Shown here piece by piece: positions 36,556-49,951 of a stretch of DNA of 64,000 nt. The position numbers and the translations under genes are program-made. The notes below the pieces were generated by a model. It ran no database searches. It was not told where the DNA came from and worked only from the letters and a program-made list of their open reading frames with translations. Each line of letters begins with the position of its first letter. Position 1 is the stretch's first letter. Source of the DNA: Natronomonas salina (GTDB lineage: Archaea > Halobacteriota > Halobacteria > Halobacteriales > Haloarculaceae); assembly GCF_013391105.1 (NCBI RefSeq), contig NZ_CP058335.1:62001-126000 (forward strand), given 5' to 3'.

Positions 36556-37281
36556 TTACAGAACCTCGTCGAAGTCCTTGTGGCCGTTGATCTCGACGCC
36601 CTCGTCGGTGATCTCCGCGAGGAAGATACCGTTACCGGAGCCGGTGTCGCGCTCGACGGCCGCCTTGATGCTGGCTGCGGCGATGGACTTGGCCTCCTCC
36701 ATCGAGAGGCCCTCCTCGTAGAGGCGCTCCAGCGTCCCGTAGGCGACCTGCATGCCGCTGCCGGTGACGGTGTAGTCGTCCCTGACGACGCCGCCGGCGG
36801 GGTCGATCGAGTAGACGTGGCTGCCCTCCTCGTCGACGCCGCCGAGGATCGGGTGGATGGCGAAGAAGGGGCCACCGCGAGCGAAGTTCCCGGCCAGCGT
36901 CGCGAGCGCGTCGATGGAGATGTTCTCGCCGCGACGGGCTTCGTAGAGGTTGACCTCGGCGCGGAGCGAGCGGATGAACGACTGGGCGCCGCCGACGCTA
37001 CCGACGAGGGTGAGGGCGGCGGTGGGGTGGATCTGTTCGACCTTCTGGACGTCCTTGTTGGAGACGAAGCGGCCGCCCAGCGAGGCGCGCATGTCGGTGG
37101 CGATGACGACGCCGTCGTCGGTCGCGATGCCGATCGTCGTCGTCCCCGTCTTGTTGACGTTCTCGAGGTCTTCCTGGGAGATATCGTTGGAGGGAGTCTC
37201 GCCGAGTTCGGGTTCGTACGGCGAGAGGGTGTGGTCCTGGCCGGTCCGTGGAAGCGGAGAATCTGGCTGTCGCATTGCCAT
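36556..37281 (-). CDS. psmB: Proteasome beta subunit
   Basis: A 241-aa precursor of the 20S proteasome catalytic subunit. The propeptide ends NVNKTG and the mature chain begins at Thr47 (TTTIGIATDDGVVIATDMRA), the active-site nucleophile. SLGGRFVSNKDVQKVEQIH and GTGSGMQVAYG-like motifs (TVTGSGMQVAYGTLE) are present. The start may be MAMRQ (37281) or MRQ (37275). A TnpB element ends about 20 bp upstream, which probably changed its promoter. Confidence 0.97.
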   Translation of the reverse strand: MAMRQPDSPLPRTGQDHTLSPYEPELGETPSNDISQEDLENVNKTGTTTIGIATDDGVVIATDMRASLGGRFVSNKDVQKVEQIHPTAALTLVGSVGGAQSFIRSLRAEVNLYEARRGENISIDALATLAGNFARGGPFFAIHPILGGVDEEGSHVYSIDPAGGVVRDDYTVTGSGMQVAYGTLERLYEEGLSMEEAKSIAAASIKAAVERDTGSGNGIFLAEITDEGVEINGHKDFDEVL

Positions 37282-37301: not shown

Positions 37302-37400
37302 TTGAATGTTTCCCTAGGGCGGGGAATCCGCTACCTCACGGGCACGGAGTTCCTGTTTCTATGACGTGACTTGCAGACACTTCGGAGAACTCCTCGGTAT
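37302..37400 (-). ncRNA. Predicted omega RNA of the first TnpB (approximate)
   Basis: In TnpB systems the guide-bearing omega RNA comes from the 3' end of tnpB and the element's right end, with the guide read from the flanking DNA. Here it would run leftward into the psmB start region. The compact palindromes at 37312-37331 are consistent with its 3' fold. Inferred from the family; boundaries are not known. Confidence 0.35.
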
Positions 37401-38577
37401 CCGTAGCGGCCACAGTCTCCACAGGCGTTGATTCGGGCCATCCCAACCCTAATTCTGAAAATCCTCGCTGGAGGACGTTCATCGCCGCATTAGCATCTCT
37501 GTGTATCTCGAATCCACACGCTGGACACGAGTGTTCCCGAACCCAGATGGGTTTCGTTGTCTCCACACCACACCGAGTGCATTCCTTGGTCGTCCCAGCG
37601 GCTTCCACCTGCACGATGTGTGTCCCGTACAGGTCACCTTTGTACTCCAGGAGCGTAAGGAACTGACGCCACGCCGCATCCTGCTTCTTCCGGGCGTTAC
37701 CATCACTCTGAAGCATTCCAACAACGTCGAGGTCTTCAACGAACACGGCATCATACTCGTTGACGAGCCACGTCGTGAGTTTGTGCTGGAAATCCAGCAC
37801 CTTACGCCGAATCCGACGCTTAATGGAGGCTACCTTCCGGCGTTGCTTCTCGTAGTTGTGACTCCCATAGTCTTTACGCGACAACTCGCGTTTATCGCGA
37901 GACAAACGCTCGTATTCGTCTTCGAGGTCAAGCCAATTCACAATCGTTCCATCTGAAGTGTGGATATAGTTCAGAATGCCAAGGTCGATCCCCACACTGT
38001 TGCTCGAGTCAAGCGAGTCCACGTCAGGTTTCTCTGGAAGGTGTTCGTCATCGGTTTTGAGGCTAAATGTGACGAACCACTCGCCCGTGCGTTCTTTTTT
38101 GAACGTTGCCTCTTGAATGGAGGCGTGTTCGGGGAGTGGGCGGGAGTAACGGATTTTGAGCCACCCGACCTTGCTGAAGCGGACGTACGCATACCCGTCT
38201 TGGCCCCTCTTGTCATCGAGGTCGAAGCCAGACTGGTTGTACGTCACGCTCCGGTAGTCGCTGGGCGCTTGTCGTTTGAGTCGACCGACGGCGTATCCCT
38301 TTTCTTTCTTTTTGCGAAGGTTTGAGAGGTTTCGATGGAAGCGGGCGACGGTGGCTTGTGCGGCTTTAGAGTAGGTGTCAGCGAACAACGACCATTTCTG
38401 TTTCCAGTCGGGAAGTTTGTTGTTCTGGTCGTACTCACTCGGTTTGTTGTCCTCTGGATTGTTTTCGTAATCCCATCGGACGTGGTTGTAGAGTTGGCGA
38501 TGGACGTCGAGTTGATGTTCCAGTCGCTCCGCTACTTCCTCGCTTGGATAAGCACGGTACCGGTGACTGTATTCCAC
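37336..38577 (-). CDS. tnpB: TnpB RNA-guided endonuclease (IS1341-type)
   Basis: A 413-aa protein, start MEYSHRYRAYPSEEVAERLE. The RuvC catalytic residues appear intact: D198 (SVGIDLGILN), E281 (VFVEDLDVV) and D361 (IHRDANAAMNV). The zinc finger has C333/C336 (CTRC) and C351/C354 (CPAC). Such proteins cut DNA next to a short TAM, guided by the omega RNA, and help keep the element in place. Codon use is visibly less GC-biased than neighbours, consistent with a mobile origin. Confidence 0.92.
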   Translation of the reverse strand: MEYSHRYRAYPSEEVAERLEHQLDVHRQLYNHVRWDYENNPEDNKPSEYDQNNKLPDWKQKWSLFADTYSKAAQATVARFHRNLSNLRKKKEKGYAVGRLKRQAPSDYRSVTYNQSGFDLDDKRGQDGYAYVRFSKVGWLKIRYSRPLPEHASIQEATFKKERTGEWFVTFSLKTDDEHLPEKPDVDSLDSSNSVGIDLGILNYIHTSDGTIVNWLDLEDEYERLSRDKRELSRKDYGSHNYEKQRRKVASIKRRIRRKVLDFQHKLTTWLVNEYDAVFVEDLDVVGMLQSDGNARKKQDAAWRQFLTLLEYKGDLYGTHIVQVEAAGTTKECTRCGVETTKPIWVREHSCPACGFEIHRDANAAMNVLQRGFSELGLGWPESTPVETVAATDTEEFSEVSASHVIETGTPCP

Positions 38578-43443: not shown

Positions 43444-44823
43444 TGTCGGGACCATACGGGCGAGGGGTTTACGTGTATCGGGACGCAGCGAGGGAAGCCA
43501 CGTGGCCGATGGTGAGAAACACCGTCCCAAATCGGCATCGTCACATATCTCCACTACTGTGCAGAGACCACAAGCACTCGCGTCGTGGATGTACCGACCC
43601 TCATGACTCCGCTGTGACGTACCCCTTGCTACCGAGATCTGTACCATCGCAGAGAACTGGGATCACTATACCACATACCTTACATGTCGTTTCTCAATAT
43701 AAAATTCGTGTAGAGTGAACTCTCCCTATATCGAACTACAGCGAGTAAATCCCCGGAAGAAACGCTCTACACACCGTTATAGGATCGATTACGACTCACC
43801 CCGCGGAATCTCTTGCTGGGTGCCACGCACTCCGATACGTAACTCACGTGTGAGGCGCGCTAGTGGGCGTTCTCGGATGTCGGAATCAGACTGATACGGT
43901 AGTTGATAGATACTACACATTTCTGAAAACCCCCTGACGGAGAGTCTCTGTAGTTGGCGAGATATCGACGATAGGTCCCGAAACATACGTCTGGTTATAG
44001 CATCAGCATCGATGGGAATCCGACGTTCTGACCGTAACTGCCCGATAGAACAACTGTACCCGGCGTTCTCTCGAATTCGAATGGTCGCCGATCTGTTCGA
44101 GTTCGAACCGAGAAATCGCAAGACGGCAAGGCCCTGTAGTTCGTTTCACTGCCAGTTACGGTGGAGTAGGCAAAGTGGCGCCGATCGGGGTTGTTCAACA
44201 GCGAGGAAATCCGAGTTCCCCTGCTGGCATGCATCGGGCGTACAGCGCCTGAAACGTCGCTATCTGGCTTCGGGGATGGCCTCTGCTCTGAATCTCGAGC
44301 AAGGTGTCTCGATACGGTTTCGAGTGGGGTTTTCCTCACAACTACAGGGCGCTACTGCAGGTATTCTTGCGGGAGACCGCCTCTCTGTAGTTTCGGGGCT
44401 CCGCTATATGGCGTCTCTGGCGTTTGCCCAGAGAAAGGATGATCCAGATTGGCGGAAAACGGTAGAACGGGATGTATACTCTTTCTAAGCGGTGTTTTAC
44501 GCGCTGTAGTTCGCCTGTCGATCCGCTATCTTCGACCTCTGCTCATCATCTCGGATATGTTGACACGTAGTGAGCGGAATCCCACCCCAGAGGGAGTGGG
44601 AGAAAGCCAATGAGTATAGAACAACAGGAACTCCTCATGGGTAAGTGTCGGACGGTCTCAAGATGACTGGAACCAGTGAGCAGAATCGAATCGCCGACGG
44701 CCGTCGAGGCGTGTAGGTGGCACCCTCCCACGACTGAAGTCGTGGGCTTTTCCTTGACTCACTATAAACGCCCGGTAGCTATCGGCGGAATCCTCTTGGG
44801 TGCGCGGAGTCGCGGCCTCTGAT
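43444..44823. other. Gene-free, AT-richer island
   Basis: This 1.38-kb stretch has no convincing gene. The open frames present (for example 43789-44121 minus and 44012-44488 plus) lack the acidic composition and GC-rich third positions of local genes. The GC content is visibly lower than around it. It holds two strong hairpins (TCCCAC/GTGGGA at 44580-44601 and the one at 44727-44746). It looks like a decayed mobile-element zone. The TraB promoter is at its left edge. Confidence 0.6.
44727..44746. repeat. Solitary insertion-sequence-like end hairpin
   Basis: CCCACGACT and AGTCGTGGG form 9-bp arms with only GA between them, followed by cttttcc. This type of hairpin is typical for right ends of haloarchaeal IS200/IS605-group elements, yet no tnpB is next to it. 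Probably the leftover of a deleted element. It could also act as a terminator. Confidence 0.5.
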
Positions 44824-46662: not shown

Positions 46663-46887
46663 ATGAGCGTGAACATCATCCCGCCGGAGCGACGAACCTG
46701 CGATCGCTGCGGACGGACGGACGTCTGGGACGCGGAGCTGGAGAACTGGGTGATCGACGAGGAGGACGGCGAGCGGCTGGTCGGCAACAGACACTGCATC
46801 CACGAGTGGGACATCAACGGCCGGTACAACCCCGTCGAGGGAAAGCCGGACGTGAACGCCGACGCCGACGCCGACGCGGACGCCTGA
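46663..46887 (+). CDS. Small zinc-binding haloarchaeal protein, 74 aa
   Basis: MSVNIIPPERRTCDRCGRTD followed by a CIHEWDINGRYNPV block. CDRC and the later Cys/His could hold zinc. The C-terminus is a simple repeat of Asp-Ala (NADADADADA) encoded by gccgac units. Its TGA overlaps the cutA start (TGATG), so both genes are likely coupled. Function unknown. Confidence 0.72.
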   Translation: MSVNIIPPERRTCDRCGRTDVWDAELENWVIDEEDGERLVGNRHCIHEWDINGRYNPVEGKPDVNADADADADA

Positions 46888-47189
46888 TGCCGACCGCCTA
46901 CATCACGGCGCCGCCCTCGGCGGCGCCCGACCTCGCCGCGGCGCTGGTCGAGGAGCGCCTGGCGGCCTGCGTCAACCGATTCGACTGCCATTCGACGTTC
47001 CGCTGGGAGGGCGAGGTCGTCCAAGAGGACGAGGTCGTCCTGCTCGCAAAGACGACCGACGAGCGATACGACGAGCTCGTCGCGCGCGTCGAGGAGGCCC
47101 ACCCATACGACGTCCCCTGCATCGAGCGCTTCGACGAGGCAGACGCCCTCGACTCGTTCGAATCGTGGATCGCCGACGCCGTCAGGTAG
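46887..47189 (+). CDS. cutA: CutA divalent-cation tolerance protein
   Basis: A 100-aa trimeric CutA1-fold protein. The pattern EERLAACVNRFDCHSTFRWE, VVQEDEVVLLAKTTDERYDE, then AHPYDVPCIERF matches the family signature. In E. coli cutA mutations affect copper tolerance; the role in archaea is not clear. The start overlaps the stop of the upstream small zinc protein. Confidence 0.95.
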   Translation: MPTAYITAPPSAAPDLAAALVEERLAACVNRFDCHSTFRWEGEVVQEDEVVLLAKTTDERYDELVARVEEAHPYDVPCIERFDEADALDSFESWIADAVR

Positions 47190-47290: not shown

Positions 47291-47926
47291 ATGTCGAGCC
47301 GGTTGAATCCCCGGGACTACGATATAGAAGAGCTCCGGGCCGCCTTCCAGGCTAACAGGGGTGAGAACAGAGAACCTGTTGGCGAAGAGGCTTTAGAGCA
47401 GCAGTATGTCCCCCAATCGGATTCGGAAAGGGCAGCTCTCGAACGAGATGGGAAATGGCTGACAGCAGGCGATACCTGCGCGCAACGGACGCAGAAGCCG
47501 GTCAAGAATGCGACTGATGGGGGGCACCCCGAGAAAGCCCGTGGGCAAGCGGATAGGGGCCACTCGGAAGCGACAGCCTCGATGCATGAAGCCGATGAGG
47601 GGCGATCACAGGCTCGTCCTCTCCCGACGGCTGATTCGGACGATCCTGATGTACTCCCTCTCACGCAGATACCTACCGCCTACACCGCCCAACAGGAAAT
47701 ACTCGATTGGATGGACGGACTGCTATCAGCGAGCGGGCCACAGGGGACGATGGAGGCTCTGAAGTACTACGAAGCTATCGGGTGGCTCTCACCGGAATGT
47801 CGCGACCAGCTGGAGAAGTTCGCAGAGGGGTTGAGAACGGCTGGCTGTACGGATTCGCGACCGCTTGTTATCGACGACCACCGCGAGAGTCTGCAGTACA
47901 TCGCGACACTGGCACGGTGTCAATGA
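47291..47926 (+). CDS. ArlD/E (FlaD/E)-domain protein
   Basis: A 211-aa protein. The N-terminus MSSRLNPRDYDIEELRAAFQ resembles the NPRDYD-x-x-ELR start of haloarchaeal archaellum accessory proteins. Residues 40-120 are a low-complexity polar linker. Residues 124-208 match the ArlD/E domain: QIPTAYTAQQEILDWMDGLL, AALKYYEAIGWLSPEC-like MEALKYYEAIGWLSPECRDQ, and IDDHRESLQYIATLA. It has no archaellum genes nearby. The next gene is a divergent actin homologue, so the two may work together. GC content is lower than in flanks. A TATA-like catttaac at 47256-47263 precedes it. Confidence 0.7.
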   Translation: MSSRLNPRDYDIEELRAAFQANRGENREPVGEEALEQQYVPQSDSERAALERDGKWLTAGDTCAQRTQKPVKNATDGGHPEKARGQADRGHSEATASMHEADEGRSQARPLPTADSDDPDVLPLTQIPTAYTAQQEILDWMDGLLSASGPQGTMEALKYYEAIGWLSPECRDQLEKFAEGLRTAGCTDSRPLVIDDHRESLQYIATLARCQ

Positions 47927-48012
47927 CCACTCCGTTTCATCGAGCGACCGGAAATACTGTGAACAGCCAGCCCTGGGTCCATTCCAATTGGGGCGGCCGG
48001 TGGTGAGCTGAC

Positions 48013-49071
48013 GTGGCTGTGACCAAGGCTTCAGACGGTGAGCCAGCGGAGGAACTGGTGCCGGTCGGAGTCAAGCTCGGGAGTACCCGCACGGTCATCG
48101 TCTATCCGGACGGCGACGAGAGGGTCGCTGTGGAGTCGATGACCTGCCTCACCACCTATCGAGACGTGCTCGTCGATGAACAGCGTAGACTCTATGGCGA
48201 GGATGCAGCGACCGAATATCCGGACGAATCACAGTTCATGATTCGGAACGGACTGCCAGTAGATGCGGAGAGCACCGATCTGGCGTCGACGTTCTTTTCC
48301 GAATTGCTCGCGGGCAACGGAATCCCGAGGAATAGCGCTGTCGTTTACGCCATTCCGGCCATAGACAACGAGGCGGGGTTGCGGCACTTCGAGCGGGTTG
48401 TCGAGGAGAGCCCTATCGGACGAGGACCAGTCCGCAGTTACCCCGAGTCCCTTTGTGGAGCACTACCAGTGTTTGAAGAGCGGTTGGATGCCATCGATGA
48501 GGTGTTCGCGACCGTAAACCTCGGTGGGACGATTTTCGAAGCCTGTGCGTACCGCTACGGCGAACAGCTGGCACAATGGTCGACCAGCTCTATTACAGGC
48601 AATCGGGTTGATCGACGCATCGCCAACTACGTCGAGGCTGAAACGCAGGGCCGTGTGAACATCGATGCAACGACCGCCAGGGAGTATAAGGAAGGGCACG
48701 CGGATTTTGAGAGCTATGAGCCCTTCACAGATGTTGTTCAACAGCCCGGAGGCGGCTCTCACGAATTCACCGTAGAGTGCAGCGTCATGGACGCGGTTGA
48801 TGAGTATGTCGACCAGGCTGTCGAAGCGATCACAACCGGGTTCCTCGTCGATCTCGAGCGGGCGTATCCAGACATCTATGACCGGGCGCTTGATCGACCC
48901 ATCGTGCTCACCGGTGGCATGGCTTGTATCCCGGGACTTGCAAATGTCTTCGCGACCCGCCTTGGTCAGGCTCTTCAGCACGATATCACACTGACCCACG
49001 CCGAACGACCGGACCTTGCCGCTGCACAAGGGGCCTACGAAATCGCCGCGCGTCTCATCGAGGTCGAGTGA
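48013..49071 (+). CDS. Actin-like (MreB/salactin-type) protein, divergent
   Basis: A 352-aa protein from the GTG at 48013 (SD-like ggtgag just before). The fold is suggested by the phosphate-1 loop VGVKLGSTRTVIVYPDG (residues 18-34), MreB-like ITGNRVDRRIANYVEAETQG (194-213), the phosphate-2 loop VFATVNLGGTIFEACAY (164-180) and the adenosine loop IVLTGGMACIPGLANVF (297-313). The catalytic Asp of both phosphate loops is changed: Lys21 and Asn169 stand where actin and MreB have Asp. It may bind nucleotide weakly or not hydrolyse it. Possible filament former; sequence shows family only at fold level. Confidence 0.65.
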   Translation: MAVTKASDGEPAEELVPVGVKLGSTRTVIVYPDGDERVAVESMTCLTTYRDVLVDEQRRLYGEDAATEYPDESQFMIRNGLPVDAESTDLASTFFSELLAGNGIPRNSAVVYAIPAIDNEAGLRHFERVVEESPIGRGPVRSYPESLCGALPVFEERLDAIDEVFATVNLGGTIFEACAYRYGEQLAQWSTSSITGNRVDRRIANYVEAETQGRVNIDATTAREYKEGHADFESYEPFTDVVQQPGGGSHEFTVECSVMDAVDEYVDQAVEAITTGFLVDLERAYPDIYDRALDRPIVLTGGMACIPGLANVFATRLGQALQHDITLTHAERPDLAAAQGAYEIAARLIEVE

Positions 49072-49249: not shown

Positions 49250-49951
49250 TTACTCGGCGGTCGCCTGGTCGGCGTCGCCGGCGTCGGTCACGTCGTCGAC
49301 CTGGTCTTCCAGCTGCTCGGAGGCCTCCTCGACCTGCTCGGTCATCTCCTCGACCTGGCCGGAGAGGTTTTCGGCGCCGTCCTCGATCTGCTCCTGGAGC
49401 CGGTCGATCTGCTCCTCGACGCGGGTCTCGACGTCGTCCTGGAACTCCTCGCTGCGCTCTTCGATCTGGTCGCGGAGCTCTTCGAGGCTCTCCTCGAGGT
49501 TCTCGAGGGCCTCGACGGTCTGGTCCTCCAGGTCCTCGTTGGCCTCGAGGATGGACTCGACCTGCTCCTCCAGCGTCTCGAGGAAGTCCTCGAGGAACTC
49601 GTCGACGGACTCGGAGCCCTCCTGGAGGTTCTCTTCGAAGGCGTCGAAGGCGTCGGCCTGGTTCTCCTCGAGGGAGTCGAGCTGCTCGTCGATGCTGGCG
49701 CGGACGTCGCCGAGGACCGCCTCCTCGCGCGGGGTGGCCGCCTCGACGGCGTTCAGGTAGCTGTCGAGGACGGTGCGGACGAGGTCGTTGCTCTGCTCGG
49801 AGACCTCGCGGGCAGGGCCGACGGTGTCAACGACCGTCGCGTTGATGTCCTTCTGGAGGTCGACGCCCGTCTCGATGGCGCGCTGGGTCTGTTCGATGGT
49901 GGTCCGCTGGATGTCGAAGACGATGCCGACGGGGGAGTTGCTTTCGCTCAT
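49250..49951 (-). CDS. Coiled-coil, phasin-like protein
   Basis: A 233-aa acidic helical protein. The first 75 residues (VFDIQRTTIEQTQRAIETGV ... SYLNAVEAATP) resemble haloarchaeal phasins that coat polyester granules. The rest is a continuous coiled coil of Glu-rich heptads (SLEELRDQIEERSEEFQDDV). A TATA box at 49978-49989 fits the start. No PHA synthase lies in the window, so the function is only guessed. It may instead scaffold another structure. Confidence 0.6.
   Translation of the reverse strand: MSESNSPVGIVFDIQRTTIEQTQRAIETGVDLQKDINATVVDTVGPAREVSEQSNDLVRTVLDSYLNAVEAATPREEAVLGDVRASIDEQLDSLEENQADAFDAFEENLQEGSESVDEFLEDFLETLEEQVESILEANEDLEDQTVEALENLEESLEELRDQIEERSEEFQDDVETRVEEQIDRLQEQIEDGAENLSGQVEEMTEQVEEASEQLEDQVDDVTDAGDADQATAE

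Follow-up and report, generated by a model that had tools for sequence, protein, structure and literature searches.

A conserved haloarchaeal arlD–salactin gene pair and its retention without an archaellum in Natronomonas salina

The window, i.e., the whole stretch of 64,000 nucleotides analysed (bases 62001–126000 of the 3.75-Mb single-contig genome G000 of Natronomonas salina, 99.8% complete), contains a gene for an ArlD-type protein that is followed on the same strand by a gene for salactin, an actin-like filament protein. The two genes are read as an arlD–salactin module, a conserved haloarchaeal two-gene unit in which ArlD would anchor salactin and would do so here independently of the archaellum; a probability of about 55% is assigned to this reading. 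A filament-and-adaptor module had already been proposed from the DNA letters (hereinafter, the sequence-only reading), and it remained the best reading in view of the frequency of the pairing, the co-occurrence of both genes and the survival of the pair in at least three lineages that lost the archaellum. Both families were known already; new here are the two genes as a module and the independence of this module from the archaellum, and the pair has not been described before, so far as the literature was searched: no paper with both 'ArlD' and 'actin-like' was found, and pairing with arlD is not mentioned in the salactin literature searched. To our knowledge, live-cell studies exist for very few archaeal actins, salactin being one of them; ArlD, the conserved partner of salactin, is a direct candidate for its polar anchor, and through the pairing the archaellum machinery would be tied to an actin filament. 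In species that have the pair and no archaellum, the filament role is separated from the motility role, and Haloferax volcanii, for which arlD deletion strains and ArlD-GFP exist, is a ready test system.

The two genes and their locus

The intact ORF 47291–47926 (plus strand) encodes a protein of 211 aa, the C-terminal part of which (residues 124–208, 85 residues; 47660–47914, plus strand) matched PF04659 (Arch_fla_DE) with E 2e-21 and 76 bits, the cut-off being 21 bits. This was the sole match above cut-off; no DNA-binding domain was found, and the FlaC domain was absent from the protein in the profile search, unlike in ArlCE. The N-terminus, MSSRLNPRDYDIEELR, contains the NPxxYDxxELR-type ArlD motif (LNPRDYDIEELR, residues 5–16; 47303–47338, plus strand), a candidate docking peptide according to the alignment of 66 ArlD proteins, in which P7, Y10, D11 and R16 are invariant and E14 and L15 are conserved at >90%. 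The ArlD/E-like domain and the archaellum-type N-terminus that had been pointed out in the sequence-only reading were both found again in this way. ArlD proteins have a common layout, in which a variable linker connects the invariant N-terminal NPxxYDxxELR to the C-terminal domain; for the protein of the window, AlphaFold2 predicted a short N-terminal helix (residues 12–24) that starts within the motif, a disordered linker and a confident C-terminal three-helix domain (helices 131–162, 168–184 and 194–210; pLDDT mostly 94–97).

In the tree of the ArlD/E domain (a short alignment of only 101 columns), the salactin-neighbour proteins together with Halobacterium ArlD were split from ArlCE at SH-aLRT 91; the window protein clustered with the salactin-neighbours of the congeners G099 and G220 (SH-aLRT 97) on a long branch, the end branch of 0.95 indicating fast evolution; over the domain, it is ~50% identical to the protein of the nearest congener. 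By profile match and tree placement, gene 1 is ArlD and not ArlCE. Structural comparison of the ArlD domain with 164 chains gave no match at E 0.001 or better (Foldseek) and a best Z of 4.0 (VIA-align); a profile search of PDB sequences with the domain gave nothing convincing.

The ORF 48013–49071 (plus strand; 352 aa, GTG start) scored 522 bits against the NCBIfam equivalog NF053533, the cut-off of which is 400 bits, and 505 bits against PF25229. It retains 45 of the 47 columns conserved at ≥99%, the nucleotide-binding segments included, and 93.5% of the 93 family columns conserved at ≥95%. In the salactin tree it joins the congeners (support 93) with an end branch of 0.94; dN to the congeners is 0.26–0.29 and dS about 2 (saturated). 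Judged by these scores, gene 2, called a 'divergent actin-like gene' in the sequence-only reading, belongs to the named salactin family, in which it evolves fast, and the idea of an unnamed divergent actin falls away. A second salactin is encoded in the same genome (G000:C1:3609072–3610052; locus L054 4007–5071; 573 bits, GC3 0.97); it evolves more slowly, has no ArlD nearby and is the sister of the second salactin in G099.

The distance of 86 bp between the two genes on the same strand, reported earlier, was found as stated. The intergenic stretch (47927–48012, plus strand), read directly, contains GGTGAG, a Shine-Dalgarno-like site, 5 nt before the GTG start of salactin; no Shine-Dalgarno-like site was found in the leader of arlD. 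Haloarchaeal transcripts usually have no Shine-Dalgarno site before their first gene, and the distribution of these sites would fit one transcript with arlD first.

A cutA homologue (46884–47189, plus strand; CutA1, PF03091) lies in the upstream flank, outside the module, in the same order as in locus L102; the order PEBP – small gene – CutA – ArlD – salactin is common to the window and G099, and G220 has part of the flank in common. Since the cutA flank is common to G099, the locus was vertically inherited. The GC content of the arlD–salactin segment is indeed lower than that of its flanks (58–60% vs about 69%), and GC3 of the pair is 0.62–0.65 vs 0.92–0.93 in the two genes directly upstream; the pair of G099 is also lowish in GC3 (0.69–0.72). 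From the low GC it had been supposed that the segment may move between strains; a mobile segment was rejected on account of the upstream synteny with G099 and the grouping of salactin with the congeners, so the low GC is a local compositional feature.

No PADLOC match to a defence system was obtained at the locus. Further features of the window were recorded: an IS605 OrfB/TnpB-type gene (37336–38577, minus strand; PF01385, PF07282) in a low-GC patch (55–57%), adjoining a proteasome subunit gene (36556–37281); more than 1 kb of low GC without a convincing gene (43650–44800), between a TraB-type gene and an HVO_0513-type regulator; and a gene for a coiled-coil, phasin- or apolipoprotein-like protein (49250–49951, minus strand) downstream of salactin and facing it.

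Conservation of the pair and loss of the archaellum

Conservation of the pair across genomes and an ArlD/E profile match of the first protein had been chosen beforehand as the tests on which the sequence-only reading could fail; the outcome of both favoured it. Of 122 salactin genomes, 100, representing 25 of 28 genera, have an ArlD gene directly upstream of salactin in the same orientation, mostly at a distance of 0 to 150 bp, the genes overlapping by 4 bp in g17. Among 24 representative salactin loci, any other neighbour was common to at most about five, and arlD keeps its place next to salactin at distances from arlCE that range from 8 kb to 2.1 Mb, or with arlCE on a different contig. Exceptions to the pairing are Halobacterium, the main one and the genus in which salactin was discovered, with its family (f2; g15, g50), g11, where ArlD lies about 5–6 kb from salactin, and some members of g1, g5, g6, g7 and g8. 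The salactin paper described synteny as poor, drew no functional hint from the neighbouring genes and made no mention of the archaellum (PMC10746226); that no informative neighbourhood was seen in this original work is probably due to the split of the pair in Halobacterium.

PF04659 was present in all 140 of the genomes with full-length salactin and in 90 of the 152 without salactin (292 haloarchaea in total), and salactin was absent from all 62 haloarchaeal genomes without PF04659 (Fisher p 1.6e-21, without kinship correction); PF04659 without salactin does occur, family f3 having ArlD/E genes and no salactin. On this genomic evidence ArlD is an obligate genetic partner of salactin in haloarchaea. 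Outside Halobacteria, no ArlD/E neighbour of salactin was found in the loci examined and PF04659 was absent from at least 5 of 19 salactin genomes; salactin does not, therefore, need ArlD everywhere, and the partnership seems to have arisen in haloarchaea.

Shared regulation alone, i.e., two pole or growth-phase genes in one transcript without physical partnership, is an unlikely explanation of these data. It accommodates Halobacterium (f2) and parts of g1, g5 and g7, in which the genes are apart and both still present in all members, as well as the mirror-tree result for 24 genomes, where the rates of salactin and ArlD were not specifically correlated (partial r 0.35 vs 0.51 for salactin/ArlCE), and the lack of a confident complex model; it explains poorly that ArlD, a motor subunit, is kept beside salactin after loss of the motor and that salactin is lost whenever PF04659 is absent. 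For the complex model, a single chain was made from the in-frame locus L014 by translating across its TGA stops, which served as an artificial linker (mixed alignment, 88 rows); the read-through was a modelling device and implies none in the organism. The linked ArlD–salactin model had pTM 0.67, obtained without PAE, and pLDDT of the N-terminal motif was 75–83, as in ArlD alone, i.e., with no gain, the ArlD-alone comparison being from another species. As a candidate for a natural ArlD–salactin fusion, the sole ORF matching both models (L023) was rejected, being a broken, frameshifted locus.

A gene without Pfam match follows salactin on the same strand in about five genera and may encode a third component (L113 5040–5729, L124 4991–5722, L114 5001–5738, L117 5023–6051).

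No archaellum genes were found near the window pair, as had been noticed earlier, and profile searches of G000 extended this to the whole genome: there was no PF01917 match, no CheF and no ArlCE (the congeners have them), and no true ArlH, only a 23%-identical stretch; the genome offers no archaellum motor for ArlD to sit on. Two g12 species (G183, G277) and one of g48 (G290) are likewise without CheF, ArlCE, ArlH and intact archaellin, and kept the arlD–salactin pair; in G290 a broken archaellin remnant with stops was found, and its loss of the archaellum looks recent. In each of these four genomes, the sole PF04659 gene is that beside salactin. The pair thus outlives the archaellum in at least three lineages. 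The salactins of the two archaellum-less g12 species, which have 2 to 4 copies each, are 86.5% identical with dN 0.09 vs dS about 2.6, signs of strong purifying selection as far as substitution rates tell. Taken with the 45 of 47 near-invariant columns kept in the window, this indicates that the pair is probably functional in N. salina and not a relic, with the reservation of its raised rates and low GC3.

Other archaellum clusters were noted among relatives. Some members of the genus of the window (G252, G604, G605 and G606) have a different archaellum cluster, which encodes two divergent ArlD/E proteins. In G252 (G252:C18:72013–77760) CheF gave no more than a sub-threshold match, and the ArlD–salactin pair is elsewhere in the genome; G604, G605 and G606 have no salactin.

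Links to the archaellum and a possible role at the pole

The sampled archaellated haloarchaea mostly have two PF04659 proteins: an ArlCE of ~500 aa, encoded in the arl operon, and a short protein, the gene of which in Halobacterium also stands in that operon, next to arlCE (L253). Haloferax-type loci have the order cheY-cheC-cheD-arlD-salactin, and the pair lies within 8–14 kb of arlCE in g19, g31, g55 and g64. Two g8 species (L075, L090) have salactin genes inside the archaellum operon, in the order cheC-cheD-arlCE-arlF-arlG-salactin-arlCE'-arlH-salactin'-arlCE''-...-arlI. 'ArlD/HVO_1202' of H. volcanii was treated as one transcription unit, which rises on deletion of csmR with other archaellum and chemotaxis units (PMC13286277); HVO_1202 is not named salactin in that paper, and gene order suggests that it is the salactin homologue.

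These links are among the grounds for assigning salactin to the apparatus of archaellum and chemotaxis, in which its filaments would place or segregate archaellum motors, with ArlD as the link and with the pairs of archaellum-less species as a slowly decaying leftover, an account that is held to be rather improbable. The restriction of salactin to PF04659 genomes among haloarchaea agrees with it, as do the salactins of the g8 operon, the vicinity of cheY, cheC and cheD in g31 and of arlCE elsewhere, and the upregulation of ArlD/HVO_1202 along with archaellum genes (PMC13286277); the long end branches and low GC3 of the window genes and the seemingly recent loss in G290, with its interrupted archaellin, can be read as decay. 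A leftover would, however, hardly persist in three unrelated archaellum-less lineages, be under strong purifying selection in 2 to 4 copies in g12, or keep the motif and nearly all near-invariant residues in the window; moreover, deletion of salactin in Halobacterium salinarum, a species with split pair, left motility unchanged (PMC10746226).

Of the loci that combine these genes, those of g8 (L075 187–12458, L090 865–11264) each contain two salactins and three arlCE copies, with two arlH copies in L075. Haloferax-type genomes encode a second short ArlD/E paralogue, with a clade of its own, on the other side of salactin and a histidine kinase (L136 1035–1490, L084 1116–1640, L139 7692–8138).

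Salactin filaments of H. salinarum grow from the cell poles and shrink back to them, and salactin-msfGFP foci were seen at both poles in 86% of cells (PMC10746226); FlaD/ArlD-GFP of H. volcanii forms polar foci, of which small ones are mobile, sometimes from pole to pole (PMC6509185). According to the preferred reading, that of an arlD–salactin module, ArlD would be in direct contact with salactin and would tether or nucleate its filaments at the pole, as a flexible adaptor that would bind with the NPxxYDxxELR peptide at one end and with the three-helix domain at the other; the layout of the protein, an invariant peptide joined to a folded domain by a flexible linker, would suit an adaptor between filament and pole. 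In swimming species the same ArlD would also reside in the archaellum switch complex, and one protein would then connect the motor to the filament at the pole. In N. salina, having no archaellum, the pair would run alone, most likely placing other polar cargo such as chromosomes. Points that speak against the preferred reading are the linked model with no gain for the motif, the rates of salactin and ArlD without specific correlation, the unchanged motility of H. salinarum after deletion of salactin, the ArlD/E genes of salactin-less families such as f3, and the salactins outside Halobacteria that have no ArlD/E neighbour. A bolder version, put forward tentatively, is that ArlD is primarily a salactin-binding polar adaptor and secondarily an archaellum subunit, by which the placement of the motor would be coupled to chromosome partition and which would work alone once the motor is lost.

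Comparison with known systems

ParM–ParR and MamK–MamJ are bacterial actin–adaptor pairs in which the filament gene lies beside that of a small adaptor. The arlD–salactin pair resembles them in that an actin-like filament is encoded beside a small adaptor; ArlD differs in its unrelated sequence, and neither a DNA-binding domain in the protein nor a repeat array or centromere-like repeats around the window pair were found. A plasmid-type ParM/ParR/parC-like DNA segregation cassette with the first protein as a DNA-binding adaptor is accordingly very improbable here, in spite of the dynamic instability typical of such filaments and of the disturbed distribution of DNA at low ploidy on loss of salactin (PMC10746226): the two marks of a ParMRC-type cassette, a DNA-binding adaptor and a repeat centromere, are missing at the locus, which is chromosomal and syntenic.

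Salactin of H. salinarum (VNG0153C; NF053533/PF25229) and that of the window belong to the same family by the equivalog cut-off and share the near-invariant residues; the former stands, with synteny reported as poor, in a context of genes for DNA repair and replication (PMC10746226), whereas the latter stands beside arlD, evolves faster and is accompanied by a second salactin in the genome. The haloarchaeal ArlD (FlaD) of the ArlCDE switch complex agrees with the window protein in the PF04659 domain, in NPxxYDxxELR and in the clade shared with the arl-operon ArlD of Halobacterium; the window protein differs in its long variable linker and in belonging to a genome without archaellum, ArlCE or CheF. 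The arlD/HVO_1202 unit of H. volcanii is alike in the order of arlD and then salactin, as judged from the Haloferax-type loci, and differs from the window pair by its place in the archaellum and chemotaxis island.
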